This document shows, piece by piece, positions 3,901 to 19,155 of a DNA stretch of 29,431 bases (position 1 is its first letter; each line of letters opens with the position of its first letter). The stretch is from a virus. The DNA lies in the IMG/VR virus record IMGVR_UViG_3300006027_000040, positions 1-29,431 of that record; one strand, given 5' to 3'. The position numbers were made by a program, and so were the translations under genes. The notes under the pieces were generated by a model, which was given only the letters and a program-made list of their open reading frames with translations, made no database searches and was not told the origin of the DNA.

Positions 3901-6900
3901 GGAAAACTGGGATGCTGTTTACAATTCAACAGATTCAAACCTAGTTACTAAGACAGGAAATATTGTAACACTTCCTTATACAGCGACTTCATATAAGAAA
4001 GTATTAGTTGCATCTAAACCACGTAATTGTGTAGGTGAATTGTTATTTAATTACAAAGGAACACTTACAGTTAACCCACCTTCAGATAACTTTACAGATA
4101 TAGAAGATGGTGGTGAAGTTAATATCTTAGATAACAACTTATACGACACAGTAGAAAACTTAGCACAAGGTTTAAATAATGCTAAACTAGTAAACCAATT
4201 AGATTTCGGTTGGCAAGGCGAACCTGAATCAATACCACTTTCAGAATTAAGTATTCCGGCACCACAAATTAGTGCTAGTGGAGATAGCTTTGCAGGTTCT
4301 TTTGAGAGTTCAGACTCCGCATTCTTCGGTGATACTGCTAACTTAGACGGAGCTGTAATTGGTGGTGGTCGAAGAGGTAGAACTAATATAACAGGAACCG
4401 TTGGCATGACAGGTAGTGCCAATAGTGTAACAAGTGGTGACTTCTCAGGTAGTGTTAATCTAGCTGCGACTTCTACAGGTAGCACAACATTTAATGTTTC
4501 CGGAACAACAGATGGAATTACCCTTTCAACAGATGTAATGACAGTCAGTGCAACAAAAGGCGAAGTTGTTAAAAACGGAGAGTTTGGTGCAATAACAGAC
4601 GTAACATTCCAAACCTATATGAGGTCTCAGGTTGTTACTTTTGTTGGTAGAAGAATGAAACCTAATACAAGATTGTATCCATTCTTTAATGGTGATGATG
4701 TTTCAGCTCATTGTAGACCTGCAAGTTCTTCAGCCGTTGATGCGATTAGTCCAAATAGTTTTTGGTCAGACTTTGCAACAGCAGTTACAGGAGATTTTGG
4801 TGATGCTATTACAACAGATGCAGACGGAAATGTTGCAGGACAATTTAGAATACCTGCAGAAACATTCTTAGTAGGAGAAAGAATTTTAAGATTAACAGAT
4901 GACTCTTTAAATAGAGACTCCTTTACAACCACATCCTGTGAAACAAAATACAGTGCTTATGGTTTAACATCAACAAAACAAACAGCAGTATTTTCAACAC
5001 AAATTCCAAACATACATTTTGGTTCAACAGCAGGTAATACAGAAACTATTACAGGTATTTTAACAGACGTAAAACTAGATGGCTCTTCAGATGTAAGTAT
5101 TTCTGTAGATGCTACAGCAGACTTTGAACTTAACTCCACAACATCGATAGAAGTTGATGCACAGCTTGATGGTGGTATTAATGTTATGCAAGATGACCCA
5201 ATAGCACAAACATTCTTTGTTAATAATAGAGAAGGTGTTGTTGTTCCTAAAGTAGATATTTACTTTAGAACTAAGTCTGCAACTAATGGAATTGAATTAC
5301 AAATTAGAGAAGTTATCAACGGTTATCCAGGAAACAAAGTTATTCCTTATGGTAGTAAAACACTATCAAGTAGCCAAGTAAATGTATCAACTGAAAGTTT
5401 ATCAGGAGCAGTAACATTCTCACCAACAACATTTACATTTGATACACCAGTTTATTTAAAACCAAATGCAGAATATTGTATAGTTCTTTTACCACAAGGT
5501 AATGACCCAGACTATAATATATGGGTTGCAGAATTAGGACAAAATCAAGTAGGAACATCCAAACGAATCGTATTAGATGATATTAACTTAGGAGTCTTAT
5601 TTACTTCTTCAAACAATAGAACATGGAATGCTTATCAGGCTGAAGACATGATGTTTGAAATATATAGAGCTAAGTTTGATATTAGTAATGAGGGCAGAGT
5701 TGTTCTTAATAATGATGATATTGATTGGTGTAAGTTACAAGACTTTACAGCTGGAACTCCTAAAGCAGGAGACGCATTACATGGATTTGATATAGCACTT
5801 ACAAGTGGTGGGTCAGGTTATGCTGTAAATGAAATTGTTACACTAGAAAATGGTGGCGGTGGAACCGGTGCTAAAATTAAAGTCCTTACAGTTTCATCAG
5901 GTGTTATACAAACTGTTGAACTTAATGACCCGGGTTCAGGGTTTACATCTGACCCAGGTTTACTAGGGCAAACTTCAACTGATGGCTCAGGTTCGGGTGC
6001 TACATTTACTTTAACTTTAAATAGAGGCATTGTTGAAAATTATGCTAATGTTTATGGAGTTGCAAGAATTAAAAATACACATGGATTATTTGCTGCCAGT
6101 GACCTTGTAGGAAACGGCACAACTAATATGTCTATTTCCACAATAGAAAATAAAACATTTAACGAACTTAGAACTAATATAAGTTACCTAGACTTTCCAG
6201 AAACTACAATTGAATTTGAGTATGCTGGAACTAAGTCATCAGGAGTAAGTGTTCCAGGAACAGATTATAAAATATTAATTGGAGGAGTTAGAAAGAAAAC
6301 ACCTGAAGAGTTTGCGGTATATTCATATGCTAATGAAGCAGGAAGTTTAAGCTCTCTCAAATCATTTACTTCGAGACTTGATTTGAACTCTGATAATAAT
6401 TATTTATCACCTATTATTGACCTTTCAAGAACATCGTTCCTAGGTAAGCGTAATCATATTAATAATGATTTTACAAACGAAACAAAAAATAATGGAAACG
6501 CACTTTCAAGATATATTAGTAAAAACATTATATTAGCAGACGGACAAGAAGGTGAAGATTTAAGAGTTTACTTGGCACAAAAAATGCCACTAAATACTGA
6601 TATAAGAGTATATGGTAGATTCTTAGCACCTCAAGATGATGCTAACTTTAATAATGATTTAGATTATGTAGAGTTAGAGGCAGTAGAAGTTCCAGGCGTA
6701 GGTGCTGAGGAAAGTTTTGCAGACTTTACATATGCAATACCTGAGGCAAATAAAACATCAGGTGTTTATAATTATGATGTAACAAGAGTAGCAAGTGTAA
6801 CTATTACAGCTGGAGGAAGTGGGTATACATCTGCACCTTCAGTAACATTTAGTGGCGGTGGTGCTACTAAACAAGCAACAGGTTACGCTGTATTAAGTGG

Positions 6901-7129
6901 CTCTGGTGTTTCAGAAATTATTATTACAGACCCAGGTAGAGGTTATACATCAACTCCTACTATTACAATTGCTGGCGGAGGCGGAACAGGCGCAACGGCT
7001 ACAGCAACAACTGGAACTGTAACATATGAAGGTATTAAAGCTTTTGCTGTTAAGGTAGTATTCCTTTCAGACAATAGTTCATTAATACCAGAAATTAGAG
7101 AATTAAGAGCAATTGCTCTACAGGCTTAA
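938..7129 (+). CDS. Giant DUF4815-like baseplate/tail-fibre structural protein (2063 aa)
   Basis: The start is supported by AGGAAACAAC just before the ATG. The N-terminus (GPYYDNFDRSKKF...FKPGVPVQARELTQLQSILE) and a central segment near residues 900-960 (RYTMADIGQIENRINRLEYY) are typical of DUF4815 proteins, large virion proteins of marine myoviruses that lie next to gp8. Around residues 1420-1520 a conserved beta segment (DDPIAQTFFVNN, then QIREVINGYPGNKV) recurs in that family. The protein also carries a TVTGGTSG module near residues 91-165 and two pairs of Gly-rich GSGYTSAP modules (about 1618-1697 and 1951-2026). The region around residues 1080-1200 is Gly/Ser/Thr-rich and low in complexity. 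No membrane segment or enzyme motif is seen. Position suggests a baseplate-proximal fibre or fibre connector, perhaps filling the T4 gp9/gp10 role, but that is inference. Confidence 0.75.
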   Translation: MALNLNTGPYYDNFDRSKKFSKILFKPGVPVQARELTQLQSILEQEHTEHLDHIFKEGAPILGAKGFIQKFPFIKINDLDAGAASVSNDTLVNYVGDTVTGGTSGMVAKIKSVRTGSDGDAVEKKTLYLEYIGGDSTGTNLHFAAGETLTVTSTDSGRNGNTFVVDNNTSAVNVTTNYFGKALFFTIEDGLIYINGRIVVHTKQTINLEPFKLNASYHIGVELDDSIVTADDDATLNDPAQGTFNYNAPGADRYKLSTTIAKLALTAEPGADFVSMYTVENGEFSKTVDADIDFYAELGKSLAARTFEESGNYVIKNFDVKVREHLKTNDNNGYKAAPDGDANKIAVSVSTGIGYVNGFRKRIEAPTYIDVPKGTDSVVEEGFTVPTSYGNYVTVNEVAGLWDIEEGSIVKLGDTASNAVTDGTHGSHAAPSTVIGQARVRQLVRSNNTPGTASTEYRLYLYDIRMTSNEFKNVRTIYWSNSTSSGFADPVLVGGNAILNESKLNQLVFRNPFSATKTLATDVGSTYDNNFFYQKEFDQTFASNGQSSLSLTGSTTFPYSSSITDATVNDVFVMVIKDSVTINGVAYIPGQVFPLTSSMFTSVSSSSLAIDVGTVSVAFDAKLYVVVKQTDVAPVPKEIRKNRFVTIDTSTHPEGALGPYNLGHTDILRIDAVYITDSSGSYVEAGTDYKEQFILDNGQTDNFYGHGKLIKKLGSSVSLTNKKITVKLSYFNPNFTATTATYFSYNSYPVDDTGASGIYTYEIPLYRSARTGLYDLRDCHDFRPYVQSTSSDATLLSSASENPLETVQLRNPGGAGYTMPAPHQSMTTDAEYYLGRIDKVMLSETGQLKRIKGEPSTKPISPLQTADGMPLADLYIAPYPSISPFLARKKGRKDLGVRVKNLQNKRYTMADIGQIENRINRLEYYTALSMLEKNTTDLTVPDANGIDRFKNGIFVNPFDSHALSNVLDQDYKCSIDPKFKTCQPFFFEENWDAVYNSTDSNLVTKTGNIVTLPYTATSYKKVLVASKPRNCVGELLFNYKGTLTVNPPSDNFTDIEDGGEVNILDNNLYDTVENLAQGLNNAKLVNQLDFGWQGEPESIPLSELSIPAPQISASGDSFAGSFESSDSAFFGDTANLDGAVIGGGRRGRTNITGTVGMTGSANSVTSGDFSGSVNLAATSTGSTTFNVSGTTDGITLSTDVMTVSATKGEVVKNGEFGAITDVTFQTYMRSQVVTFVGRRMKPNTRLYPFFNGDDVSAHCRPASSSAVDAISPNSFWSDFATAVTGDFGDAITTDADGNVAGQFRIPAETFLVGERILRLTDDSLNRDSFTTTSCETKYSAYGLTSTKQTAVFSTQIPNIHFGSTAGNTETITGILTDVKLDGSSDVSISVDATADFELNSTTSIEVDAQLDGGINVMQDDPIAQTFFVNNREGVVVPKVDIYFRTKSATNGIELQIREVINGYPGNKVIPYGSKTLSSSQVNVSTESLSGAVTFSPTTFTFDTPVYLKPNAEYCIVLLPQGNDPDYNIWVAELGQNQVGTSKRIVLDDINLGVLFTSSNNRTWNAYQAEDMMFEIYRAKFDISNEGRVVLNNDDIDWCKLQDFTAGTPKAGDALHGFDIALTSGGSGYAVNEIVTLENGGGGTGAKIKVLTVSSGVIQTVELNDPGSGFTSDPGLLGQTSTDGSGSGATFTLTLNRGIVENYANVYGVARIKNTHGLFAASDLVGNGTTNMSISTIENKTFNELRTNISYLDFPETTIEFEYAGTKSSGVSVPGTDYKILIGGVRKKTPEEFAVYSYANEAGSLSSLKSFTSRLDLNSDNNYLSPIIDLSRTSFLGKRNHINNDFTNETKNNGNALSRYISKNIILADGQEGEDLRVYLAQKMPLNTDIRVYGRFLAPQDDANFNNDLDYVELEAVEVPGVGAEESFADFTYAIPEANKTSGVYNYDVTRVASVTITAGGSGYTSAPSVTFSGGGATKQATGYAVLSGSGVSEIIITDPGRGYTSTPTITIAGGGGTGATATATTGTVTYEGIKAFAVKVVFLSDNSSLIPEIRELRAIALQA
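5789..6028 (+). repeat. Gly-rich beta module pair (first) in the 2063-aa protein
   Basis: Two modules are seen, LTSGGSGYAVNEIVTLENGG and LNDPGSGFTSDPGLL, each followed by GGTGAKI or GSGATFTL. They follow the pattern found in gp8, gp15 and gp18 of this phage. Confidence 0.6.
6788..7015 (+). repeat. Gly-rich beta module pair (second) in the 2063-aa protein
   Basis: Two modules are seen: VTITAGGSGYTSAPSVTF with a GGGATKQATG tail, and IITDPGRGYTSTPTITIAGG with GGTGATATAT. They are closest to the pair in the tail sheath at 26049-26291, including a near-identical nucleotide stretch around TATACATCTGCACCT. Confidence 0.65.
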
Positions 7130-7140
7130 TTATAAATTTA

Positions 7141-7148
7141 TATAAATA
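7141..7148 (+). promoter_or_regulatory. T4-type late promoter box TATAAATA
   Basis: Exact match to the T4 late -10 octamer in the short gap after 7129. By T4 spacing the transcript would start near 7154, just inside the small gene whose ATG is at 7151. The promoter may therefore mainly serve the fibre gene at 7367, or the 70-aa protein may be read from the upstream transcript. Confidence 0.6.
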
Positions 7149-8275: not shown

Positions 8276-9379
8276 ATGGCAGGACCACTAAAAATAAAAG
8301 CAAGTTCGTTCCCGGTATCTGCCACATCTTTTGAAGGTGTGCAAGAACTTACAGATGTCGAAATTAAGGATACAATTGCTTATGTTTTAACAAAGAAATT
8401 TTCAGATGATACAGATGGTTCTGGGACTGCTGAATTAAACATTAACGGTTCAGGAACTTCCATAGGGACATTTACTAACAGAGAAAGACAAGAATCAGTT
8501 GGAACTCACCCAGCTGCCGGAACTCTTACATCCACAGTATACGACTTTAAACAAATTACAAGTGCAGCCACAGAGTCTGTAACAAGACCTGCTAGGTTCG
8601 ATGGTGATAGCGTTGCTGAAATGACAGACGGTGAAATAGATACTGAAATTTTAGATAAAGTTATTACAGCTATGGTAACTGATGATGAACATACAACAGG
8701 TATCTATAAAATCTCAACAACAACACCTACCTCAGGTGGGACTTGGACATCACGTTATACAATCGCAGAAACACAAGTTGACGGAACAGATGTAACATAT
8801 TACTTATGGCAAAAAACAACAGCTAATACAACTCCAGCAACAGATAGAAATTTCCCTGTTAAATTAGATGGTGAAAGTGTTGTTGAAATGACACAGGCAG
8901 AATTGGAATCATTAACAGCTGCCATGAGAAACAGAATTATTACTACAGGTGTTGGCACATATTTACTAGATAGCTCTACACCGAGTGCAACAGGAACATG
9001 GGTATTGATGGGCTCTGCAATGGACGATATTATTAAGTCTATTGCTAGCATAGCTTATGCAGGTGCTTATTCCTCAGAGTTTACAGGTTACTATATAACA
9101 AACTTTGCAGGAGCATATGCCAACAACTTTACAGGTTATTACACAGGAAACTTTACAGGAGCATACACACTTTACTATGGTGGTTATGTAGGTGGATATT
9201 TTTCCGGAACATATTCAAGTAATTTTGCAGGAACATATACTGGTTACTTTACAGGTTATTATGCTGGTGCTTTTGCAGGTAACTATACTGGTTACTTCAC
9301 TGGTTACTATGCGGGTAATACAATTCAAACAACTCCGCAAACTCAGGAAACAAAACACCTTTACATTAGAACCGCATAA
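8276..9379 (+). CDS. Tail-fibre-like protein with a C-terminal Tyr/Phe-Gly tetrapeptide repeat (367 aa)
   Basis: A strong Shine-Dalgarno sequence (AAAAGGAGATAG) precedes the ATG. Residues 1-255 contain three degenerate copies of a unit that opens with (F)-P-V-x-hydrophobic-(D/E)-G-x-(S/Q)-V/E-x-E-(M/L)-T. The copies begin near residues 13, 107 and 196, and the later ones end in a GTW strand (GGTWTSRY, ATGTWVLMG). Residues 261-348 are 22 uninterrupted tetrapeptides with an aromatic residue at position 1 (one Val) and mostly Gly at position 3 (FTGY, YTGN, FAGA and similar). A 19-residue polar tail follows. The regular repeat suggests a fibrous or beta-helical/solenoid stalk exposed on the virion. 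A fibre role is inferred from neighbours and composition; receptor binding is possible but unproven. Confidence 0.65.
   Translation: MAGPLKIKASSFPVSATSFEGVQELTDVEIKDTIAYVLTKKFSDDTDGSGTAELNINGSGTSIGTFTNRERQESVGTHPAAGTLTSTVYDFKQITSAATESVTRPARFDGDSVAEMTDGEIDTEILDKVITAMVTDDEHTTGIYKISTTTPTSGGTWTSRYTIAETQVDGTDVTYYLWQKTTANTTPATDRNFPVKLDGESVVEMTQAELESLTAAMRNRIITTGVGTYLLDSSTPSATGTWVLMGSAMDDIIKSIASIAYAGAYSSEFTGYYITNFAGAYANNFTGYYTGNFTGAYTLYYGGYVGGYFSGTYSSNFAGTYTGYFTGYYAGAFAGNYTGYFTGYYAGNTIQTTPQTQETKHLYIRTA
9056..9319 (+). repeat. 12-base tandem repeat, 22 units, coding aromatic-x-Gly-x
   Basis: In-frame units such as TTTACAGGTTAC, TATACTGGTTAC and TTTGCAGGTAAC run without a gap from 9056 to 9319. Each codes for Y/F-x-G/S/N/T-x, with one VGGY unit. 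The DNA copies differ mostly at third positions, so the protein pattern is kept more strictly than the DNA. Confidence 0.85.
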
Positions 9380-9413: not shown

Positions 9414-9857
9414 ATGAGCGAGGAAAAACAATTTCCTAAATTTAAAAACCCCTATTATTCAAATAGGGAAACAGGTCAAATCACCGCAGAGATGCTTATC
9501 GGGTCAGATTACTCTAGGGTAGTCATCAACCCACCCACCGAAGAAGGGCTAGTTAATGCCGACTATGAGGAAATCCTAGCAGAGTTTGGTGAAGATACTA
9601 TTGAAGCAAGAACAGTTGAACTTGAAACAATACACCACAAACACAAAGAAGCACAAAAAGAACAAGAAGAAGCAAAACGTGATAGAATAAAACAGGAGTC
9701 TTTATTTAATGCTAAGATGGAAGCATTTGAAATACAAGAAATTAAGGATTCTGAAAACGCCGAACTTAAAAAGAAACTTAGAAAATCCACTACACTAATC
9801 GAAGTTCAAGCATGGTCAACTATCATTATACAGGAACAATATAACAAGAATGGATAA
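9414..9857 (+). CDS. Charged coiled-coil protein of unknown function (147 aa)
   Basis: GGAGATATATT before the ATG gives a clear ribosome site. The N-terminal 45 residues (FPKFKNPYYSNRETGQ, SDYSRVVINPPTEE) are polar and possibly ordered. Residues about 65-130 are Lys/Glu/Gln-rich with helical periodicity (HHKHKEAQKEQEEAKRDRIK), predicting a long coiled coil. The gene lies directly after a fibre gene, and its last 8 bases overlap the next gene, a glycosyltransferase. That placement suggests a fibre assembly factor or chaperone, but there is no recognisable family signature, so it should be called hypothetical. Confidence 0.65.
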   Translation: MSEEKQFPKFKNPYYSNRETGQITAEMLIGSDYSRVVINPPTEEGLVNADYEEILAEFGEDTIEARTVELETIHHKHKEAQKEQEEAKRDRIKQESLFNAKMEAFEIQEIKDSENAELKKKLRKSTTLIEVQAWSTIIIQEQYNKNG

Positions 9858-10557
9858 TGGATATCTGCTAGTTGCATCTGTAGATAAACAATATTATGAG
9901 GCAGCAATTAAACTTGCCGAATCTATATTAGACTTTGACCCTCGTGCTAAAATAGCATTGTTTACTCATACAGAATGGATAGAAAATGATGAACGTGTTC
10001 AACGTTTATTTTATCATATAGATGGAACAGCTCCCAATAGCATACGTGCTAAACTTTGGGCTTTACCACAAACACCCTTTGAAACAACTCTTTATATAGA
10101 CGTAGATGCGGTAGTCCAGCATGAGGACATCTCTACGGTGTTTGATTTATTAGGTGATAACGATATACTGTTTACACGTAATAGGCCCTACAATGCTAAG
10201 ATAACAAAGCTAAGCGACAATGAAGAAATGATTTATCATTGTGGATTGTTTTTATATAACAATAAGCCTAATACTTTAAAACTAATGAAAATGTGGAATG
10301 AAAATTGGCACAAACAACAGGAGCCTGATTGGGAACATAAGTATAAGAATTTAGGAGTAACACCTTGGGATACGTTTACAATGTGGGATTTATTAAACAA
10401 TACAGAGTTTAAAGATACTATAAAGGTAGGAGTTTTTCCAACTCCAGATGCGAGATGGAACTTTGTAAATGGATATAAATATTCAGAGTTAAATAATGAA
10501 GATATTGTAATATATCATTATACTCTGAGTCGTGTTAAGCCGGGTCTTTCTTTATAA
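9850..10557 (+). CDS. Glycosyltransferase, GT-A fold, GT8-like (235 aa)
   Basis: Residues 1-40 (GYLLVASVDKQYYEAAIKLA...KIALFT) form a Rossmann-like nucleotide-sugar start. A DVD motif at residues 84-86 (TLYIDVDAVV) is the metal/nucleotide-binding DxD of GT-A enzymes. IYHCGLFLYNNKP near 130-142 fits the acceptor-side strand seen in GT8-like enzymes. The sugar donor and acceptor cannot be read from the sequence. The start overlaps the preceding gene by 8 bases, indicating translation coupled to the structural operon. That favours a virion-related target, although host surface glycans are also possible. It differs from the reverse-strand transferases, which share a K-W/Y-G start motif. A possible 30-aa antisense ORF overlaps its last 23 bases. 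Confidence 0.7.
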   Translation: MDNGYLLVASVDKQYYEAAIKLAESILDFDPRAKIALFTHTEWIENDERVQRLFYHIDGTAPNSIRAKLWALPQTPFETTLYIDVDAVVQHEDISTVFDLLGDNDILFTRNRPYNAKITKLSDNEEMIYHCGLFLYNNKPNTLKLMKMWNENWHKQQEPDWEHKYKNLGVTPWDTFTMWDLLNNTEFKDTIKVGVFPTPDARWNFVNGYKYSELNNEDIVIYHYTLSRVKPGLSL

Positions 10558-10627
10558 CTAGTTTAATAACTTTTTGTAGTCTTCCAGCTTTCATCATTTT
10601 ATGAAATCTTTTAAAAATTTTACTCAT
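10535..10627 (-). CDS. Candidate short basic peptide ORF (30 aa)
   Basis: A complete ATG-to-TAA frame on the reverse strand, starting MSKIFKRFHKMMKAG and ending VIKLVIKKDPA. Twelve of 30 residues are Lys or Arg, spaced with hydrophobic residues as in an amphipathic helix. It fills most of the otherwise empty gap at 10558-10686 and overlaps the 3' end of the glycosyltransferase by 23 bases. There is no good Shine-Dalgarno sequence. An AT-rich TTATATATAGTAT stretch and a perfect palindrome lie just upstream of its start. It could be a real small gene or chance; its length alone proves nothing. Confidence 0.3.
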   Translation of the reverse strand: MSKIFKRFHKMMKAGRLQKVIKLVIKKDPA

Positions 10628-10644
10628 ATACTATATATAAGAGT

Positions 10645-10673
10645 TTGTTACAAGATTGTAACAAATGTAACAA
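10645..10673. promoter_or_regulatory. Palindrome with extra half-site, candidate operator
   Basis: TTGTTACA-AGAT-TGTAACAA (10645-10664) is a perfect 8-bp inverted repeat with a 4-base centre. A third TGTAACAA copy follows at 10666-10673. It lies between the reverse short ORF and the oxygenase-like gene, 14 bases before the latter's ATG. It has no T-run, so an operator or RNA structure at the 5' end is more likely than a terminator. Confidence 0.4.
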
Positions 10674-10686
10674 AACTGTAATAATT

Positions 10687-11319
10687 ATGAAAATAATAGA
10701 AATAGGCCCACAATTAAATAATATATTAACAACACACTCTGATTGGTTTTTCTCACAGGAAGACTATTTAGAACTGCCTGACTCGCCCTGTGAAATAAAG
10801 GAACATACACATACGATACAAAGTGCTTGTGGAGAGGAATACTTAGCAGAGGTGCAAGCTAAGGGTAGAGACCATAGGGGAGTTCCGGAAATATCTAGAG
10901 CAACTTCCTTTCAAACTGATATGTGGGTTCCAAAAAAATATAAAGAAGAATCTAAAAGAATAAACAAAGAACTATTAGATTTTTTAGGTGCAAAGTTTAG
11001 TGCTGTTCACGTATTTTACAAACCAGATTGTTTTATGTCTTGGCATTGTAATTGGGATTGTCCTGGATATAATGTGTTATTAAGTTATAATAAAACAGGC
11101 AATGGTTTCTTTAGATATCAAGACCCAATAACAAAAGAAATTGTTACTATGGAAGACACGCCTGGCTGGTCATGTAAGGTCGGTTACTTTGGTGGACATG
11201 AAGAAGAAGATAAAATATTCTGGCATACCGCAGGCTCATATGAACCAAGAATTACATTTGGTTTTGTAGTCCCACATAAAGGTATGTGGGAAATGATGAT
11301 AGAGGATATTGGAGATTAA
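10687..11319 (+). CDS. 2OG-Fe(II) oxygenase-like protein (210 aa)
   Basis: The start is set at the ATG at 10687; an in-frame TTG at 10645 would place the palindrome inside the gene. A probable double-stranded beta-helix core begins near residue 105. H120 (MSWHCNWDCPGYN), H180 (FWHTAGSYEPR) and R188 have the order and spacing of the two iron-binding histidines and the 2-oxoglutarate-binding Arg. The acidic ligand would be D124, or it may be replaced by N122 (HxN), so activity is not certain. Similar oxygenases are frequent in marine T4-like phages. The substrate is unknown; the surrounding glycosyltransferases allow the idea of hydroxylating an acceptor, which is only inference. It converges with the reverse gene at 11316, their TAA stops sharing the palindrome TTAA. 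Confidence 0.5.
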   Translation: MKIIEIGPQLNNILTTHSDWFFSQEDYLELPDSPCEIKEHTHTIQSACGEEYLAEVQAKGRDHRGVPEISRATSFQTDMWVPKKYKEESKRINKELLDFLGAKFSAVHVFYKPDCFMSWHCNWDCPGYNVLLSYNKTGNGFFRYQDPITKEIVTMEDTPGWSCKVGYFGGHEEEDKIFWHTAGSYEPRITFGFVVPHKGMWEMMIEDIGD

Positions 11320-11999
11320 CCTAACGTTTGTCTTTGTCCTATAACCATAAACCTATCATATTCTTTTTTACCGTCCCAAGAATAATAGTTTTGTTTTTTA
11401 ACACCCTCAAAGCCTATCTCATCTAAGGAGACTTGTTCTTTTAAGGCTTCTAAAGTATTAACACAATTAATACCATACATTTCTTCTACAACATTAGAAT
11501 TTTGAACAGCAAATATACTAATAGGATTTTTAGTAGTTAGTTCTTTTAATGGATACATCTGCTCTGTGTGAATACAAATAACAATGTCAACATCTATTTT
11601 ATTTAAATTGTCAAACTCAAAAGGAATGTCTAAGTTGTGGTGTCTTGTTTTAATAAATTTATCTTGTGAATAATGTTTGTGAAATAATTTACTAAGTTCA
11701 ATGGCTTCATCATCTATATCAACTAAATGTAATTGTGAAACATCTATATTTTCACATAGTAAAGGAACAAGAGGAACACCTAACCAAGAATTTAAAATTA
11801 AAACACGCATACTACCCTGTTTAAGATAATATTCATCTATATAATTTTTTAATTCTTCAACTAGCCATATGCTAGCATCCATATTATTTTGTTCAAGACT
11901 TTGCCTAAAGTCTGTAAGTTTATGAGGCATTCTACGTTCTATTACTTGGAGAGCCTCTCCCCAATATTTAAAGTTATTTAAAAAATTAAAATTTAACAT
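11316..11999 (-). CDS. Class I SAM methyltransferase-like protein (227 aa)
   Basis: The central part reads MRVLILNSWLGVPLVPLL, then LHLVDIDDEAIELSK, then DVDIVICIHTEQMYPL. This order of a beta strand with Gly loop, an acidic residue ending strand 2 and a hydrophobic strand 4 matches class I methyltransferase motifs I, II and IV. The motif I loop (NSWLG) is atypical compared with DxGxGxG, so activity is uncertain. The start at 11999 overlaps the upstream glycosyltransferase by 14 bases. A longer form from 12035, with AGGGA eight bases upstream, is also possible. It is the last gene of the reverse operon, so a sugar or protein acceptor modified by the same island is plausible. Substrate unknown. 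Confidence 0.5.
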   Translation of the reverse strand: MLNFNFLNNFKYWGEALQVIERRMPHKLTDFRQSLEQNNMDASIWLVEELKNYIDEYYLKQGSMRVLILNSWLGVPLVPLLCENIDVSQLHLVDIDDEAIELSKLFHKHYSQDKFIKTRHHNLDIPFEFDNLNKIDVDIVICIHTEQMYPLKELTTKNPISIFAVQNSNVVEEMYGINCVNTLEALKEQVSLDEIGFEGVKKQNYYSWDGKKEYDRFMVIGQRQTLG

Positions 12000-12660
12000 C
12001 TTCACTTTTTCCCATTGAATCGAATATACATACATAAGGTAAATCCCTAAACACGTGCTTAGTCGTGTCTTGAGGATATAAGTAGCCGTGATTAAAACTA
12101 TAAACCCATCCTACAGGAAAAAGTTTTTGTTTAACAACACGTCTATTATAAAAGAAGTTATCCAAACCTCTATAATACCAAAGTATCTGCTTCTTATATT
12201 TATTAAAATAATCGGTAAGTTCCTGTGTATTTAAGGAATCATTCCACCGTAATACAGAACTATTTAAATCTGTATATTTGTGAGGTATGTGTCTAGTATT
12301 TTTATATGATGCATCTAAATCGTGCCACCATGTTTTAACAAAACATAAACTATCCTCACATTCAAAGTTAGCAAAAATATCTATGTTCTTTTGAATAATA
12401 GTATCCAAGTCAAAAAACATTTTTTCGCCTTCTTGTTTTACAATCATTGGGTCAAACAAATACATCTTGTTCCACCATTTTTGTAATTTGTTATTCTCAG
12501 GAAATTCTAAAACATTTATTTCCTCAGATAAACCCGTGGCATCTTCTGTTAAACAATAAAAAGTAAAGTCTTGTGTTAAGTGTTCTTTACAAGACGCAAG
12601 GATTTGTTCTACGTGTTGAGCAGAATATTTAGTCCCCCATTTTACTGTATAAATGTTCAT
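11986..12660 (-). CDS. Glycosyltransferase-like protein, KWG family (224 aa)
   Basis: The N-terminus MNIYTVKWGTKYS matches the start motif of the other reverse-strand transferases. FYCLTED at residues 34-40, the WNKMYLF helix, and DLD at 84-86 (MFFDLDTIIQ) form a GT-A nucleotide-sugar site. LNSSVLRW, the GLDNFFY segment and VYSFNHGY are further motifs shared with the paralogues. The ATG at 12660 overlaps the preceding stop as ATGA, so translation is coupled; an in-frame TTG at 12666 is an unlikely start. No ribosome site is seen, consistent with coupling. Donor and acceptor unknown. It is the shortest form of the family here, with no extra domain. Confidence 0.65.
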   Translation of the reverse strand: MNIYTVKWGTKYSAQHVEQILASCKEHLTQDFTFYCLTEDATGLSEEINVLEFPENNKLQKWWNKMYLFDPMIVKQEGEKMFFDLDTIIQKNIDIFANFECEDSLCFVKTWWHDLDASYKNTRHIPHKYTDLNSSVLRWNDSLNTQELTDYFNKYKKQILWYYRGLDNFFYNRRVVKQKLFPVGWVYSFNHGYLYPQDTTKHVFRDLPYVCIFDSMGKSEDVKF

Positions 12661-13469
12661 CGCCAATGTGCTAATAATTCTGGGTCTGCCAATTCATCTT
12701 GTTTTGTGCTACCCCTACTACCATCTTCAAAAGGTAATAAGTCAACATTAAATACGCACAAAATACAATTAGGTCTATAAATTTTTATATTAAGGTCATC
12801 CTCTTCCCAGCTACGACCTCTATTATATGAGTATGCCATCCAACTAGGAAAGTGGTCCCAAAGTTTTTTACCATAGTCTCCCCAACGCCAACTATGATAG
12901 TTATCTGTTCCATCTGTATATGTAAACCATATTTTTTCTTGATGTTCTAAAACATCGTTCCATATAGGTTCACATTGGTCATCACTCCAAACTTGACAAC
13001 TGCCATTAGTATAGGCACCATGAGCAAGTTTAAACCTTCTGGTGCTCATAGGTTGTGGGTCCTGCCACCAACTTCTTAATTTAGTAGGCTGTTCAGTATT
13101 ATATGTAAGTATAGGTTCTAAGGAATTTTGTATAATAACATCTAAGTCAAAGAATATAAAACGACCTGTAGGTTTATCTTCTGCAAAATTGTGGGTATTA
13201 AAAACAAAAGTTTTAGGCCTATCCCAACACCTAGCCATACCATATTTAAAGTCGTCTTTTTGAAACCAGTATTTAGGATGTATGTCTGGTATATCAGGAA
13301 ATGGAATAACTTTTATATCATCATCAAGGCCTTCAGGTTTATCTGTATAACAATAAAAATGAAAATCATAATGGTCCGGAGTATTCCTTTTTGCCATATT
13401 TTTTAAACGATTAACAAAGTGTGGGCCATACTTATCGCCCCACTTAGAACATATTGCATTAACACGCAT
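12657..13469 (-). CDS. Glycosyltransferase-like protein, KWG family (270 aa)
   Basis: The start at 13469 is chosen because it places CSKWGDKYGPHFV at the N-terminus as in the paralogues, and GGAG lies nine bases upstream. An ATG at 13529 would add 20 unrelated residues inside the previous gene. DLD at residues 108-110 (FIFFDLDVIIQ) is the GT-A metal motif. HPKYWFQK and CWDRPKTFVFNTHNF are nearly the same as in the N-terminal part of the 737-aa neighbour (CWDRPKFLIFNSHHW), so the two are close duplicates. GTDNYHSW and MAYSYNRG follow as in the family. The start overlaps the preceding gene by 11 bases and the end overlaps the next by 4. Sugar and acceptor unknown. Confidence 0.65.
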   Translation of the reverse strand: MRVNAICSKWGDKYGPHFVNRLKNMAKRNTPDHYDFHFYCYTDKPEGLDDDIKVIPFPDIPDIHPKYWFQKDDFKYGMARCWDRPKTFVFNTHNFAEDKPTGRFIFFDLDVIIQNSLEPILTYNTEQPTKLRSWWQDPQPMSTRRFKLAHGAYTNGSCQVWSDDQCEPIWNDVLEHQEKIWFTYTDGTDNYHSWRWGDYGKKLWDHFPSWMAYSYNRGRSWEEDDLNIKIYRPNCILCVFNVDLLPFEDGSRGSTKQDELADPELLAHWR

Positions 13470-15672
13470 TATCACAATCTCCACATTTTGCTTTACATAT
13501 CGGTAAAGGGTTTCTACGTAAATGTTCACTTATGTTTTGAACATCACTATTATATATTACTTCATGCACAGTGATTTTTGAAGCATCACTATACTGCCAA
13601 TTATAAGGATAGTCTAAAGGATGGTATGGAAATAATTTATTTTCCCAAACATCTCTTCCTATATAGGAACATGGAAATAAATTACTCTTACTGTTTATAT
13701 AAAAATACCCGCTTTTTCTAGCATCACACCATACAGGGTCTTTATCCTTTATCTTTTTTCTTATATTTCTTAATTCAATTCCTTTTTTAAATTCTTTTAA
13801 TGTATCTAAATTAACAGGAACATTTTTATCTGTTTGAATTTGTTCCTCAAGTTTTTCTATCTTCGTCTGTTCTTCTTGTTTTACAACTTCTATTGTATCA
13901 ACATAATCTAATTTAACACCCTCTTGGAATGTTTGTAAACGCACAGAGCAATTTTGTTCTTGGAAGTAGTTACAAATACGTTCTAAATCTTCTACATGAA
14001 TAGGGTCTGTTATCTCACAAACAAACGTAACCCAGTTCACTGGATATTTATCAAAGATAGTTTTAATACTATTGAGGTTATGTTCATAGCCATCTACAAA
14101 TATATCATTAAATTCATTATTAGTATCATTTCTTTTTGTTGATAATTGTATCATTGCACCATCTGGCTTTTCATCATATAGACCTTTATAAAGGTCACTA
14201 TACTCTTCGCCATAACTTTGAAAGTATTTAAATAACGTATTGTCATCTGTGGAACCTTTTTGATTAAGGACACGTAATAATTCCTCTCGTGGCATAATGT
14301 TATACAACATACGAAATACTTCTTCATATTCCTCATCATAAAATAATTCTGTAAGATGATAAAAATAATATTTTTTATAAAGTTCTGCACATTCATCATA
14401 TGTTGCGTGCTGAAAAAATACTGAGGGTCCTTCAGTTTTATATCTTTCCATTAACCAGTCTTCTTTTTGTAAGGCAAACAACTCATCAAAGTTTTCACAT
14501 AGTTCTTCCCCTGTAAGATTCCACATCATACTTTGGTCGCCGTGTTGTATATCCCATACTTCCGGAAAGGCTTCTTTAAAAGTTAAGTGAACAGAAACAA
14601 TATCATTGTTATTATATGATTCTAATATTTGTTCATGTGCATTAAAATTTAAATACCTGTCAGTTAAACTTCTATTGTTTAACCAATCAAACTCTAACCA
14701 GTTTCTCATATGTGGAAATTGTGTATGGTTTTGTTTCCAGTCTCTACCAAATCTGGGAAACTCATCTAAATATTTTTCTGCTAATTGTGTATAATTTTCT
14801 GCATCTAATAGTTCTCTTATTTTTACTAAATCTTTTGTATTGTAATTAAAGAACTCTTTCGGTAATTTAGGTAACCACAATCTTTCAAAATCATCTTTGC
14901 CGTGCCAATGTATTAATAAGTCATAGTCCTTTTTAATCTCATGCGGTTTAAATTGTTCGCCTGCATTAGGAGTTATATCAACATTAAACAAAGCTACTTT
15001 AGCTTCCTCTCTATATAAATGAGGTCTTACATCTTTACCAAACTCTTGTCCCCTATTATAACTGTAATACCATTCCTTAGGTAGGAAGTTCCAAAAGTTT
15101 TTGCCTACTACCATGTCCTCTCTATAATAATGATAGTTGTCGCTACCTTTAAAGAAAGTTTTGAATACGGTGTCTTGGTGTTTTATTACATCATCATATA
15201 TTTTTTCACATTGATTGCCGTTCCATAACATAATACTAGAGTTATATAATGAACCTCGCATATCAGTAAACCGTCTGTTCTTTAACACAGACGGGTCTTC
15301 CCAATTAGAGTATAACATTGTGGGTTGTTCTGTGGCTATATCAAAAAACTCATCTATATTATTTTGTATAATAATATCTAAGTCCATATAACAAAATGGT
15401 CCTTTTGTTTTTAGCCAATGGTGGGAATTGAATATAAGAAACTTGGGTCTATCCCAACAATAGTTTTCCTTACCAAACCAATAGTCAGGATGCAAGGGTT
15501 TGACGTGAGGTATATTCCTTGTTATAATATGTTTATCTAATCCACTTACATCATCAGTATAACAAATAAACTTAAAACGCTTACTGTATTTACGACTGAC
15601 CATGCCGTATAAATTATTTACATAATCTGGGCTATATCTATTTCCCCACTTTATGCAAAGAAAGTGCATCAT
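13459..15672 (-). CDS. Glycosyltransferase fused to SPASM-like iron-sulfur region (737 aa)
   Basis: Residues 1 to about 260 are a complete KWG-family transferase: LCIKWGNRYSPDYV, CYTDD at 37-41, CWDRPK at 72-77, DLD at 97-99, GSDNYHYY and YYSYNRG. Residues about 260-500 are rich in aromatic and acidic residues and are not recognised. Residues about 505-600 (MIQLSTKRN, then WVTFVCEITDPIHVEDLERI) resemble the later strands of a radical-SAM barrel. The C-terminus from 648 (WCDARKSGYFYINSKSNLFP, C668, and C726, C730, C733, C737) resembles the SPASM iron-sulfur region of phage radical-SAM proteins. No CX3CX2C motif is found where a radical-SAM core would carry it. The only such spacing is at the extreme C-terminus. 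So this is a fusion with a probably degenerate or partial radical-SAM/SPASM part that may act in binding. Confidence 0.6.
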   Translation of the reverse strand: MMHFLCIKWGNRYSPDYVNNLYGMVSRKYSKRFKFICYTDDVSGLDKHIITRNIPHVKPLHPDYWFGKENYCWDRPKFLIFNSHHWLKTKGPFCYMDLDIIIQNNIDEFFDIATEQPTMLYSNWEDPSVLKNRRFTDMRGSLYNSSIMLWNGNQCEKIYDDVIKHQDTVFKTFFKGSDNYHYYREDMVVGKNFWNFLPKEWYYSYNRGQEFGKDVRPHLYREEAKVALFNVDITPNAGEQFKPHEIKKDYDLLIHWHGKDDFERLWLPKLPKEFFNYNTKDLVKIRELLDAENYTQLAEKYLDEFPRFGRDWKQNHTQFPHMRNWLEFDWLNNRSLTDRYLNFNAHEQILESYNNNDIVSVHLTFKEAFPEVWDIQHGDQSMMWNLTGEELCENFDELFALQKEDWLMERYKTEGPSVFFQHATYDECAELYKKYYFYHLTELFYDEEYEEVFRMLYNIMPREELLRVLNQKGSTDDNTLFKYFQSYGEEYSDLYKGLYDEKPDGAMIQLSTKRNDTNNEFNDIFVDGYEHNLNSIKTIFDKYPVNWVTFVCEITDPIHVEDLERICNYFQEQNCSVRLQTFQEGVKLDYVDTIEVVKQEEQTKIEKLEEQIQTDKNVPVNLDTLKEFKKGIELRNIRKKIKDKDPVWCDARKSGYFYINSKSNLFPCSYIGRDVWENKLFPYHPLDYPYNWQYSDASKITVHEVIYNSDVQNISEHLRRNPLPICKAKCGDCDNAC

Positions 15673-16321
15673 AATATTTTACATCTGCTCCTGGAAATTG
15701 TTCTTGTCCATTTAATAACGCTACTGTATATTCTGGTCTATATTTAAAACTTTGATTGTCTTCTTTAGTTGCACCATATACATAGGAATAGATAAGTTGT
15801 TCTGGGAAATGTTTGAAATCACACTCATGCCAAAAGAATCTATCATCGCCACCTACATATTTTGTCATATAGTAGTCTTCATCTTTTAAAAATTTTTCTA
15901 CAATATTTATAGCAGATCTACCTGTCCAGGATAGAACACTGGAGTTATAATTACCCAAGTAATTTAATTTAATATCTTGATTGTAAACTCTTTCGGTAGG
16001 AAAATTTTTATCTTTCCAATGAGTATAAACTATTGTATTACTATTATAACTCGATTTCCATAAGATGTCAATACTTTTTTGTATGTTTATATCCAAATCA
16101 AAATACAAAACATGGCCCAAATCTGTTTGCTGTAACATAAGAACTTTATTCCAATGCCCATACTCGGGGTCTAGCGGTCTTGTTTCTATAGCAGGGTCTA
16201 TATCAGTAGGGTCATCTGTTAAACAGACATAATTATACTTGCCATTTGTTTTTTCATAAATATCATTAACAGAGTCAGCACTAAACTTATTGCCGTATTT
16301 GATTGTTAATATAGTTTGCAT
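15638..16321 (-). CDS. Glycosyltransferase-like protein, KWG family (227 aa)
   Basis: First gene of the reverse block. The N-terminus LTIKYGNKFSADSV is the family start motif. VCLTDD lies at residues 32-37, HWNKVLML precedes the catalytic region, and DLD at 75-77 (LYFDLDINIQ) is the GT-A metal motif. NSSVLSW, GGDDRFFW and IYSYVYG follow the paralogue pattern. Its 3' end overlaps the 737-aa gene by 35 bases. Only 17 bases separate its ATG from the divergent gene at 16339, so its promoter would have to lie in that gap or inside the divergent gene. No TATAAATA box faces this way. Sugar donor and target unknown. Confidence 0.65.
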   Translation of the reverse strand: MQTILTIKYGNKFSADSVNDIYEKTNGKYNYVCLTDDPTDIDPAIETRPLDPEYGHWNKVLMLQQTDLGHVLYFDLDINIQKSIDILWKSSYNSNTIVYTHWKDKNFPTERVYNQDIKLNYLGNYNSSVLSWTGRSAINIVEKFLKDEDYYMTKYVGGDDRFFWHECDFKHFPEQLIYSYVYGATKEDNQSFKYRPEYTVALLNGQEQFPGADVKYYDALSLHKVGK

Positions 16322-16325
16322 ATCT

Positions 16326-16333
16326 TATAAATA
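16326..16333 (+). promoter_or_regulatory. T4-type late promoter box TATAAATA, possibly leaderless
   Basis: Exact octamer in the 17-base divergent gap. With the T4 spacing the first transcribed base would be 16339, the A of the next gene's ATG. No Shine-Dalgarno sequence lies between. Confidence 0.65.
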
Positions 16334-16338
16334 TTGTT

Positions 16339-16665
16339 ATGGCAACAATACAAAACATCGTTATCGACCAGGGGACCACATTTAGTTTAGAGCTAACTCT
16401 AACAAATGATGATGGGTCCGCAACCGATTTAACGGATTATACTGTTTCCTCTCAGATGAGAAAAAGTCATTACTCTACTACTTATACAAGTTTTACTACA
16501 AATAAAGTTAATTTAACAGGAGTTATTACCATTTCATTAACAGCTACACAGACATCAGAACTAAAAGCTGGAAGGTATGTGTATGATATTGAAATTACAT
16601 CATCAGAAGAAACTGTTAGAGTATTAGAGGGTATTGTTACTGTAACTCCGGAGGTAACCAAATAA
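16339..16665 (+). CDS. Small beta-rich virion protein (108 aa)
   Basis: The sequence alternates short hydrophobic strands (IQNIVIDQGTTFSLELTLTN, VITISLTAT, RYVYDIEITS), as in Ig-like or baseplate upper-protein N-terminal domains. The phrase IDQGTTF...LTLTNDDGSATDLT is typical of small structural proteins in the fibre region of marine T4-like phages. There is no signal peptide or enzyme motif. Its stop overlaps the next start as TAATG, so the two are translated together. A baseplate or fibre-attachment role is probable from context only. The absence of a ribosome site and the placement of the late promoter suggest a leaderless message. Confidence 0.6.
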   Translation: MATIQNIVIDQGTTFSLELTLTNDDGSATDLTDYTVSSQMRKSHYSTTYTSFTTNKVNLTGVITISLTATQTSELKAGRYVYDIEITSSEETVRVLEGIVTVTPEVTK

Positions 16666-17010: not shown

Positions 17011-18381
17011 ATGGCAACAGTAATTCAAATTAAGAGAAGTGTCAATGATACTGCTCCATCAACATCGGATTTAAGTGAAGGAGAATTAGCCTATAGCCAA
17101 GATAAATCAGGCGATGGTGCTAATGCGATACTTTACATTGAATCAGTTGATTCTAGTAACGCTCAAGTTATTCAGAAAATTGGTGGTAAATATTATACAG
17201 ACATTATCGATGGCGCTACGGATTCTAACACTGCTTCCAAACTAGTTAAAAGAGATGGTAGTGGAAACTTTAGTGCAGGCACAATCACAGCAGCCTTAAC
17301 AGGTAACGTAACAGGAACAGTTTCAGACGTTTCTAACCATGACACAGATGATATTTCAGAAGGTTCAAGTAATCTTTATTTTACAGATGCAAGAGCTAGA
17401 GGTGCTATTAGTGCTTCTGGTGATATTTCATATGACAGTTCAACTGGTGTTATTAGTTTTACTAATGATGCTGGAGACATTGAAAGTGTTGTTGCCGGTT
17501 CTGGTTTAACAGGTGGCGGAACAACAGGTGATGTTACACTAAACATTGGCGCAGGAACAGGTATTACTGTAGCTGCCGATACAGTTGGTTTAACAGACAC
17601 AGGTGTTACAGCTGATTCATACGGTTCAACAACAGCAATTCCAGTCCTTACAGTTAATGCACAGGGACAAATTACAGCTGCAACAACAGCAGCCATTGCT
17701 ACTTCATTCACACTTTCAGATGGTTCTAACACAGATACATTTAGTGGCGGTGAAACATTAACATTCAGTGGTGTATCAAACGAAACAGACATCACAGTAT
17801 CTGACAATGAAGTAACAGTAGGTTTGGTTACTAACCCAACAATTGGTGGTAACTTAACAGTTTCAGGTAACATGACAGTTGCAGGAACAACAACTTCTGT
17901 TAATTCAACAAACTTAGAAGTTAATGACCCACTATTTAAAATGGGTGCGAACAACGATTCATCAGACGCAATTGACTTAGGTTTTTATGGTTTGTATGAT
18001 ACATCAGGTTCACAAGACTTATTTGCAGGTTTGTTCAGAGATGCAAACGACGGTAAATGGAAACTGTTTAAAGATTCACAATCCGAACCAACAACAACTG
18101 TTGACACTACAGCAACAGGATATAGTGTTGCTACTTTAGTTGCCAACCTCGAAGGCGATGTTACTGGTTCATTAACAGGCGGAACTGTTAGCGGACTAAG
18201 TGCAGCAATCGGTGTTGCAGACGGTGGAACAGGTGCAGGAACATTTACATCAAATGGTATTGTATTCGGTAACGGAACAGGCGCATTACAAGTAACAGCA
18301 GCCGGAACAGATGGTCAAGTTCTAATTTCCAATAGTGGAACACCAGAATTTACATCATCATTAGACGGCGGTTCTTACTAG
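17011..18381 (+). CDS. Tail-fibre-like virion protein (456 aa)
   Basis: The N-terminus IQIKRSVNDTAPSTSDLSEG resembles the adaptor domain of Mtd_N-like fibre proteins (a positively charged start, then D/EGELAY). KLVKRDGSGNFSAGTITAAL near residues 78-97 is a widespread fibre motif. The segment SEGSSNLYFTDARARGAIS also occurs, altered, in the 425-aa protein at 19412. Beta-rich Gly/Thr repeats (NLTVSGNMTVAGTTTSVNST) follow, then a segment with FYGLYDTSG and GKWKLFKD. The C-terminus is LDGGSY. The product is a probable trimeric fibre exposed on the virion; the receptor is unknown. A strong terminator follows directly. Confidence 0.7.
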   Translation: MATVIQIKRSVNDTAPSTSDLSEGELAYSQDKSGDGANAILYIESVDSSNAQVIQKIGGKYYTDIIDGATDSNTASKLVKRDGSGNFSAGTITAALTGNVTGTVSDVSNHDTDDISEGSSNLYFTDARARGAISASGDISYDSSTGVISFTNDAGDIESVVAGSGLTGGGTTGDVTLNIGAGTGITVAADTVGLTDTGVTADSYGSTTAIPVLTVNAQGQITAATTAAIATSFTLSDGSNTDTFSGGETLTFSGVSNETDITVSDNEVTVGLVTNPTIGGNLTVSGNMTVAGTTTSVNSTNLEVNDPLFKMGANNDSSDAIDLGFYGLYDTSGSQDLFAGLFRDANDGKWKLFKDSQSEPTTTVDTTATGYSVATLVANLEGDVTGSLTGGTVSGLSAAIGVADGGTGAGTFTSNGIVFGNGTGALQVTAAGTDGQVLISNSGTPEFTSSLDGGSY

Positions 18382-18395
18382 GTCTTACTAAATTT

Positions 18396-18422
18396 GGGGG
18401 TCTTTCAATCAGGCCCCCTTTT
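18396..18422 (+). terminator. Rho-independent terminator
   Basis: GGGGGTCT and AGGCCCCC form an 8-bp stem (one G-U pair) with loop TTCAATC, followed by TTTT. It lies 15 bases after the stop at 18381. Confidence 0.85.
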
Positions 18423-18438
18423 ACAGGATAATTAAATT

Positions 18439-18843
18439 ATGGAATATAAAAGTGAAGGGGCAAAAAAGCCGGCAGGGAATAAAGTCCTTGACCATTATTT
18501 AAACTCATTGGCTGGTAAAGTTAATGAATTAAATTTAAATAAAATATTTTTAGAGTCTCAACTGGCAATGAAGAACGAGGAAATACAAGAATTAACCGTT
18601 CAATTACAAAATGTGCCAGAAGTAAAAGACGACGAAGAAGATGATGAGAAATTTATTTCTATGAAAAAAGACTTATCTGATGCAAAGAAAAAAATAGCTC
18701 AGTTAAGTCAAGAATTAAAAAGTTCTGAATTTAAGCAAGGCGGAGATTCAGAGTTAGTGGAAAAATTAAGACAAAAAAACTTAAAACTTGAAAGTCAGTT
18801 ACATGAATTACAAGTTGCAAGGAGAAAAGATAGGAAACAATAA
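18439..18843 (+). CDS. Coiled-coil protein of unknown function (134 aa)
   Basis: Residues 20-60 (NSLAGKVNELNLNKIFLESQ, then MKNEEIQELTVQLQN) and 72-134 (MKKDLSDAKKKIAQLSQELK, KLRQKNLKLESQLHELQ) show strong heptad patterns, separated by an acidic stretch (VKDDEEDDEKF). This predicts two coiled coils. The N-terminus is basic and polar (YKSEGAKKPAGNK). The gene starts after a terminator with AGGATAATTAAATT upstream and stops 3 bases before the next gene. It may be an assembly factor or a structural rod near the fibres. No family is recognised. Confidence 0.65.
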   Translation: MEYKSEGAKKPAGNKVLDHYLNSLAGKVNELNLNKIFLESQLAMKNEEIQELTVQLQNVPEVKDDEEDDEKFISMKKDLSDAKKKIAQLSQELKSSEFKQGGDSELVEKLRQKNLKLESQLHELQVARRKDRKQ

Positions 18844-18846
18844 TAA

Positions 18847-19155
18847 ATGGCTATTACTTTAAAACCAAAAAGAAGTGAAACAAACGGAGCTGTTCCAACG
18901 GCTGGAGACTTAGAAGTCGGCGAATTAGCTATGAACCCAACGAACAAGAAATTGTTCACAAAAGATACATCGGGAAATATTATTACAGTTGCTAACTATT
19001 CAGTTGGTGACCCTAATCTTATTTTTCCAATTGGTGACTATGGAGATTTAACTGATACCGCAGTAGACGCTTTCGGTATCTCAATAGCTACAGCCTTTGA
19101 TTGTCAGAATCCAACAAACGATTTGACAATTGAAGACTTGGGCGAATTAAGTTAG
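18847..19155 (+). CDS. Small fibre-adaptor-like virion protein (102 aa)
   Basis: The first 50 residues (ITLKPKRSETNGAVPTAGDL, then EVGELAMNPTNKKLFTKDTS) fit the adaptor pattern found at the N-termini of fibres in this region: a basic strand, P-T/S-x-x-D/E-L, and GELAMN/AY. The remaining 50 residues are acidic and unfamiliar (FPIGDYGDLTDTAVDAFG, then TIEDLGEL). No long shaft follows, so it is a short adaptor-type protein. Only 3 bases separate it from the coiled-coil gene and 13 from the next small adaptor. A structural role is likely by context. Confidence 0.55.
   Translation: MAITLKPKRSETNGAVPTAGDLEVGELAMNPTNKKLFTKDTSGNIITVANYSVGDPNLIFPIGDYGDLTDTAVDAFGISIATAFDCQNPTNDLTIEDLGELS

Follow-up and report, generated by a model that had tools for sequence, protein, structure and literature searches.

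The host recognition cluster of pelagimyophages is described, in the portion of the source available, as a large, non-syntenic and hypervariable island for which modification of the host O-chain is the reading its authors prefer (Zaragoza-Solas et al., 2020, PMC7029224). The same portion reports several GT8 genes and radical-SAM cassettes in these host-recognition regions. Excerpts of PMC5332604 describe radical-SAM genes as common among some T4-like phages from the environment, and PHD-like oxygenases are widespread in marine phages; for the latter, the accessible part of the Phold paper gives 'glutamine' as the next most conserved triad residue in the phage group studied (PMC12774648). The locus analysed here shares with the pelagimyophage/cyanomyophage cluster, as far as the available portion of PMC7029224 describes it, a position upstream of neck genes and among tail-fibre genes of T4-like marine phages, several GT8-type transferases and radical-SAM-related cassettes. 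Unlike that cluster, as presented there, it forms one ordered cassette across related contigs, with an oxygenase-like protein (OX), a methyltransferase-like protein (MT) and a fusion of a glycosyltransferase (GT) to a radical-SAM-like region.

The window, by which we mean the whole stretch of DNA analysed (29,431 bases of an IMG/VR virus record), carries T4-like structural genes: the end of a baseplate wedge gene at 696–929 and, from 20785 onward, neck, sheath stabiliser, terminase, sheath and tube genes. As connector genes lie at 20785 and 21757, a sheath stabiliser gene at 22500, and fibre-type genes are present, the region with fibres and GTs adjoins the neck genes. One phrog_460/701-type stretch occurs in the sheath stabiliser (22500–23489), in the sheath (25608–27563) and in the C-terminal part of the 2063-aa product of 938–7129, and looks like one domain inserted into several virion proteins. 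Window bases 1–25000 gave no nucleotide-level match among phage records. Among the 15 matches listed, cyanophages, pelagiphage Mosig and methylophage Melnitz all have terminases ~47–49% identical to that of the window, and therefore no host is named.

The initial annotation had described five DxD-bearing GT-like genes together with an oxygenase-like and a methyltransferase-like gene, and all seven ORFs, called mechanically, were recovered, with DxD in each of the five GTs. On the plus strand, between fibre-type genes, lie the repeat fibre p8276 (8276–9379, 367 aa), p9414 (9414–9857, 147 aa), GT1 (9850–10557; GT-A-like, a family of its own, with D84-x-D86) and OX (10687–11319). The OX ORF opens at 10645, from which its residues are numbered, and its conserved start, M15, is at ~10687. 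The minus strand carries MT (11316–11999; the ORF reaches 12035, with a conserved Met at ~11999), GT2 (11986–12660; ORF to 12666), GT3 (12657–13469; ORF to 13529, likely start at 13469), GT4 (13459–15672, 737 aa) and GT5 (15638–16321). The right border of the block is p16339 (16339–16665, plus strand), which is fibre-assembly-like (phrog_1084, 1.8e-27; phrog_3304 'L-shaped tail fiber protein assembly', 2.4e-21). When the conserved starts are used, neighbours in the reverse block overlap by 4 to 35 bp, in agreement with the tight overlap first reported. The start of GT1 overlaps the end of p9414 by 8 bp; the overlap of the first transferase with its neighbour therefore stands, but the structural role ascribed to p9414 is unproven, since this protein, found between fibre and GT1 throughout the relatives, has no Pfam or PHROG match above chance. 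None of the seven enzyme proteins reaches a Pfam family above cut-off or matches an NCBIfam model.

Gene order was compared in related viral contigs, taking the best 80 of 288 loci for the fibre, the best 80 of 408 for GT1 and the best 80 of 432 for GT3; because only the best 80 loci per search were used, the counts lean to close relatives, and several counted loci share contigs or come from near-identical phages. In all three sets, the order fibre-p9414-GT1-OX / MT-GT2-GT3-GT4-GT5 / p16339 was found, insertions aside, in every contig that was long enough. Among the best 80 of 288 fibre-anchored loci, GT1 lies downstream in 77, the remaining three contigs ending before GT1, and OX can be seen in 73 of these 77 loci (three contigs stop after GT1, L135 one further ORF later). 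OX is the next gene in 78 of the best 80 of 408 GT1-anchored loci, the other two contigs ending there, and the fibre lies upstream in 75, the other five contigs starting inside or just before GT1. Fibre, p9414, GT1 and OX occur together in 49 of the best 80 of 432 GT3-anchored loci; the other 31 contigs end too early, and no different gene order was seen in this set. Scans anchored on GT4 and on OX (37 and 45 loci) gave the same order except in three distant contigs (L072, L082 and L084), which keep fibre-p9414-GT1-OX next to a different or rearranged reverse block. Only these most distant relatives and Phage C48C1 carry the four genes without the full reverse block. Phage C48C1 is also the one record among 50,697 phage records that has homologues of the fibre, GT1 and OX; they lie side by side and precede a gene annotated as L-shaped tail fibre assembly. 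GT2-like genes were detected in four of the 50,697 records. Extra ORFs of ~195–290 aa recur in relatives at the same junctions, i.e. MT/OX and around GT2/GT3 (e.g. L010, L022, L069 and L258), and resemble insertion hot spots.

Co-occurrence with the repeat fibre at 8276, which the initial annotation had pointed to, was borne out, the fibre being present wherever the contig is long enough. Its term 'accessory' island fails, because the block is a conserved unit, on a par with core genes. GT3 is 79–84% identical to the window protein and the large terminase 73–79%, with GT3 higher in all six phages having both values (82 vs 79, 84 vs 75, 83 vs 76, 83 vs 77, 82 vs 74 and 79 vs 73; the two identities were computed with different aligners). 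Across a 13-phage panel, median identity to the window protein is 82 for GT3, the most conserved protein of the block, 68 for p16339, 66 for MT, 65 for GT2, 58 for the GT4 domain, 55.5 for p7367, 53 for GT1, 51 for both fibre and OX, 49 for GT5, which is among the least conserved of the block, and 42 for p9414.

The DxD motif is invariant in the aligned homologues of the transferases (24/24 for GT1, 26/26 for GT2/3/5 and 17/17 for GT4). A window search with GT4 retrieves GT3 (42%), GT5 (35%) and GT2 (31%), which identifies GT2–GT5 as paralogues, and phrog_1962 'glycosyltransferase' is matched by GT2 (3.3e-10), by GT5 (1e-7) and weakly by GT4 (0.002), with no match for GT3. In a tree of 51 rows, GT2, GT3, GT4 and GT5 form one clade each, of 12 rows per clade, with support values of 100/99, 100/99, 98/97 and 100/97, respectively, and GT3 and GT4 are sisters. 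As each gene has its own clade, the four must have separated before the divergence of these phages. It is highly improbable that the genes are unselected cargo, brought in by horizontal transfer as a GT island whose members share no pathway. Such an origin would agree with the hypervariability reported, in the available portion of PMC7029224, for marine phage host-recognition clusters, and with the ORFs of ~195–290 aa inserted between block genes in many relatives; it is already disfavoured by the fixed order in the loci examined, the four orthologous clades, the invariant DxD and the strong conservation of GT3 and MT.

GT8 enzymes such as glycogenin, LgtC and the LARGE1 domain have DxD and the GT-A fold, the latter as modelled for GT4, in common with the transferases of the block. 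Pfam GT8 (PF01501) was matched by 4 of the 26 GT2/3/5-type members (best 1.1e-4) and by 9 of the 24 GT1 members (best 8.6e-4), with no window protein among the matches listed. Among PDB entries, the GT profile matched LgtC (E 0.0075), a lipooligosaccharide galactosyltransferase, best by sequence; the GT1 profile found no match among PDB sequences, and the GT4 profile gave chance-level matches only. LgtC and Pfam GT8 are the best sequence matches; the similarity is weak, and GT4 differs from GT8 enzymes by a long extra region. The GT-A core that the initial reading called for was recovered in the model of GT4 residues 1–262 (14887–15672, minus strand; D97-x-D99), parts of which are below pLDDT 50: Foldseek matched glycogenin-2 (3.2e-4), Z scores were 9.7 for glycogenin and 9.6 for LARGE1, and GT6 enzymes were found too. 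In a viral fold library, the best GT4 matches are phage glycosyltransferases, to this first domain. The remaining transferases would, by homology, have the same GT-A fold.

Taking these data together, we propose, with confidence about evenly balanced, that the cassette is a conserved core module in a clade of uncultured T4-like phages and that it builds a fixed oligosaccharide, with the adjacent fibre as the most likely site. The five GTs would transfer sugars in successive steps to assemble one fixed oligosaccharide, four of them being ancient GT8-like paralogues with separate conserved roles, and OX and the MT-like protein would prime, trim or cap it. The acceptor would most likely be the Tyr/Thr/Gly-rich repeats of p8276, or another part of a fibre, and the glycan on the virion may aid stability or host binding. 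The [YF]xGx[YF] repeat occurs at 16 sites in p8276 and at two or fewer in any of 18 other plus-strand proteins checked. N-x-T sequons in the fibre repeats were considered as glycosylation sites and dropped, as they are not kept across homologues. Fibre linkage, phage-intrinsic conservation and the full transferase set favour this proposal, and the conservation of GT3 above that of the terminase fits a phage-encoded acceptor. On the other side, the linkage can also be explained by common inheritance within one phage lineage. The link to the fibre is stricter for GT1 and OX than for the reverse block, so that a split is possible, in which the fibre would be the target of GT1 and OX but not of the reverse block.

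The cassette could instead modify a host-surface glycan (LPS or O-chain) during infection, which would prevent superinfection by rivals or keep new virions from being trapped on debris; adjacency of the fibre genes would then arise since phage host-recognition genes travel together. We regard this possibility, including its account of the fibre linkage, as the main rival and the less likely of the two. It is the published reading for pelagimyophage GT islands between VrlC and a neck gene, in which GT8 is most represented, in the available text of PMC7029224, and the match to LgtC supports it and counts against the fibre as acceptor. However, the islands of that text are described as non-syntenic and hypervariable and the present block is ordered. 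Host surface glycans differ strongly from strain to strain, yet conservation is higher for GT3 than for the terminase, and GT1 and OX lie within the fibre's late-strand gene run and were, in all loci examined, accompanied by the fibre where the contig reached it.

The promoters bear on the same question. The T4-type late promoter motif TATAAATA occurs 11 times in the window, ten of them on the plus strand (5.2 expected; 3 of 100 shuffles were as high), and, of 18 plus-strand starts checked, five (7151, 16339, 19412, 20785 and 25608) have it at most 60 bp upstream. Its plus-strand copies at 7141, 16326, 19383, 20756, 25549 and 25568 lie 10–59 bp upstream of five plus-strand genes. The copy at 16326–16333 faces p16339, and in 29 distinct p16339/GT5 intergenic sequences the motif faces p16339 in 29/29 and GT5 in 3/29, where it is palindromic. 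From this pattern it follows that the fibre-assembly gene p16339 has a late promoter and that the GT block is usually without one of that kind. The initial annotation had envisaged a glycan pathway aimed at fibre proteins or at the host surface; linkage favours the former target, but the GT block, on the opposite strand, lacks the late promoter of p16339 in 26 of the 29 sequences, which argues against the fibre and for a host-surface role. A scored sigma-70 scan of the 29 intergenic regions revealed no conspicuous further promoter for the GT block. An early promoter was considered, as TTGAC-type sites were seen by eye in five longer regions, and it was discarded: in the scan, sigma-70-like sites toward GT5 reached p≤0.05 in only 2/29, with a mean p of 0.64. 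A perfect 12/12 sigma-70 match lies at 16071–16043 on the minus strand, inside GT5.

OX was initially annotated as a probable 2OG-Fe(II) oxygenase. Its model (pLDDT 89.7) has a predicted PHD2/P4H-like double-stranded beta-helix (Foldseek 6.1e-5; PHD2, Z 11.3 over 152 residues; Pseudomonas putida P4H, Z 10.6), and AlkB/FTO folds are also matched, ranked below PHD2; the OX profile gave only chance-level matches among PDB sequences (T-cell receptor chains). In the OX alignment, W133-H134-x-N136, H194 and R202 are invariant, with H194 ... R202-x-T204 in 21 sequences, and R202 is, by its sequence position, a candidate for the 2OG-binding Arg/Lys after the second His. OX shares with PHD2/EGLN-like 2OG-Fe(II) oxygenases the predicted fold, two conserved His and a conserved Arg. 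Unlike in those enzymes, the carboxylate ligand of H-x-D/E is replaced by Asn (WHxN) in 102 of the 102 distinct homologues for which the motif could be read (100 in a first count and 2 reread; 4 fragments, one WHNN and three ending before the motif, were set aside), and no Pfam or NCBIfam family is matched. Because Asn replaces the carboxylate ligand, catalysis by OX is unproven, and the oxygenase label is, on the model, half right. Phage C48C1 has three copies of the H-x-N family (18360–18902, 40139–40714 and 152349–153020).

Seven 2OG-oxygenase genes of Pelagibacter phage Mosig were aligned with OX and are too divergent to settle the ligand point; in that genome, 10947–14802 and 31815–38844 carry several genes annotated as 2OG-Fe(II) oxygenases, of which four are located between the fibre and the neck genes. 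Cellular genomes gave three OX hits, which were rejected as host genes: they are MAG contigs, and the two that carry cassette genes (labelled Muricauda and Bifidobacterium breve) are read as phage contigs; the third, Sphingobacteriales, has only OX in the stretch read. We also rejected OX as a prolyl hydroxylase of the p8276 repeats, as the repeats have no proline and such an enzyme would therefore have no target there. The missing proline and the missing carboxylate ligand are two further points against the fibre as the substrate. Regarding MT, the initial label of methyltransferase-like gene agrees with the direction of its matches, which are weak (Spermine_synth 0.013, Methyltransf_12 0.068, spermidine synthase 0.064); together with the alignment, they suggest a class I methyltransferase-like protein with a putative SAM-binding Rossmann fold.

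An oxygenase next to a glycosyltransferase follows the logic of TET/JBP-type and T4-type base modification. Hypermodification of the phage DNA, with glycosylated bases and OX as base hydroxylase, would make use of this pairing and of the lower-ranked AlkB/FTO matches of the OX model. We nevertheless find it very unlikely: the GT domains are GT-A/GT8-like, known phage DNA glucosyltransferases are GT-B, OX is without the H-x-D carboxylate, and the genes lie within the fibre region, not beside nucleotide metabolism.

The C-terminal part of GT4 is a feature that goes beyond the initial annotation. GT4 combines the GT8-like domain with a helical middle and a radical-SAM/SPASM-like C-terminal region. 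In a model of poor overall confidence (pLDDT 67.8), residues 501–717/726, a candidate partial TIM barrel, match SuiB (Z 12.8, 167 aligned) and BtrN (Z 12.1, 156 aligned), above the GT matches; within 501–726, residues 600–654 and 669–693 have pLDDT <50. The SPASM family PF13186 is matched by 10 of 17 GT4 homologues (best 2.4e-4), the window GT4 itself having no match. Unlike in SuiB and BtrN, the CxxxCxxC cluster motif is absent from the tail in all 30 distinct C-terminal stretches. At the same place and spacing, in the loop after the first strand, the window protein has N515-xxx-N519-xx-N522 (14107–14130, minus strand), and the three positions are N in 30/30, N in 23, D in 5 and I in 2, and N in 30/30. 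The SPASM-like part (residues 649–737; 13462–13728, minus strand) has Cys 649, 668, 726, 730 and 733 (and 737). CX18C, in the first half, is kept in 28/30 stretches and CxxxCGxC in 30/30; the five to six Cys are fewer than the seven of the SPASM motif as given in the accessible part of PMC6231123. The sequences suggest a radical-SAM-like domain that is apparently dead and, again unlike in SuiB and BtrN, fused to a glycosyltransferase.

Complete GT4 ORFs fall into a class of ~250 aa without the tail (102) and one of 400–950 aa with it (59; not deduplicated). In L032, L036, L039 and L041, a short GT4 is followed by a separate ~500-aa protein that bears a degenerate form of the tail. A GT2-like transferase of Phage C48C1 (98839–101350) has, one gene away, an ORF whose radical-SAM-type motif, CNYSCSMC, is intact; this arrangement is a possible source state of the fusion. 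No GT-SPASM fusion or phage SPASM protein was found in the available part of the literature searched, a result that is not proof of absence.

In SuiB, the peptide contacts the radical domain, the SPASM domain and the linker, according to the available part of PMC6231123. For the proposed glycosylation of the fibre, we offer as a doubtful refinement a self-contained system in which the former radical-SAM/SPASM region would dock a fibre peptide for the fused GT. Its order, hydroxylate or bind and then glycosylate, would by analogy resemble the plan of eukaryotic Skp1 glycosylation; nothing on Skp1 was found in the literature searched.

The features that set this locus apart are the strict order and conservation of the cassette, the H-x-N oxygenase family and the fusion of a GT to a radical-SAM/SPASM-like tail that lacks the cluster motif. 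The GT4 tail would be a clear instance of a radical-SAM fold that persists in the absence of its catalytic cluster, and the OX family raises the question of whether the PHD fold is still catalytic there. The host-recognition GTs of marine phages are usually read as modifiers of host O-chains; a fixed cassette of five GTs that stays with one repeat fibre, and in which one GT surpasses the terminase in conservation, makes glycosylation of the virion a concrete and testable alternative.
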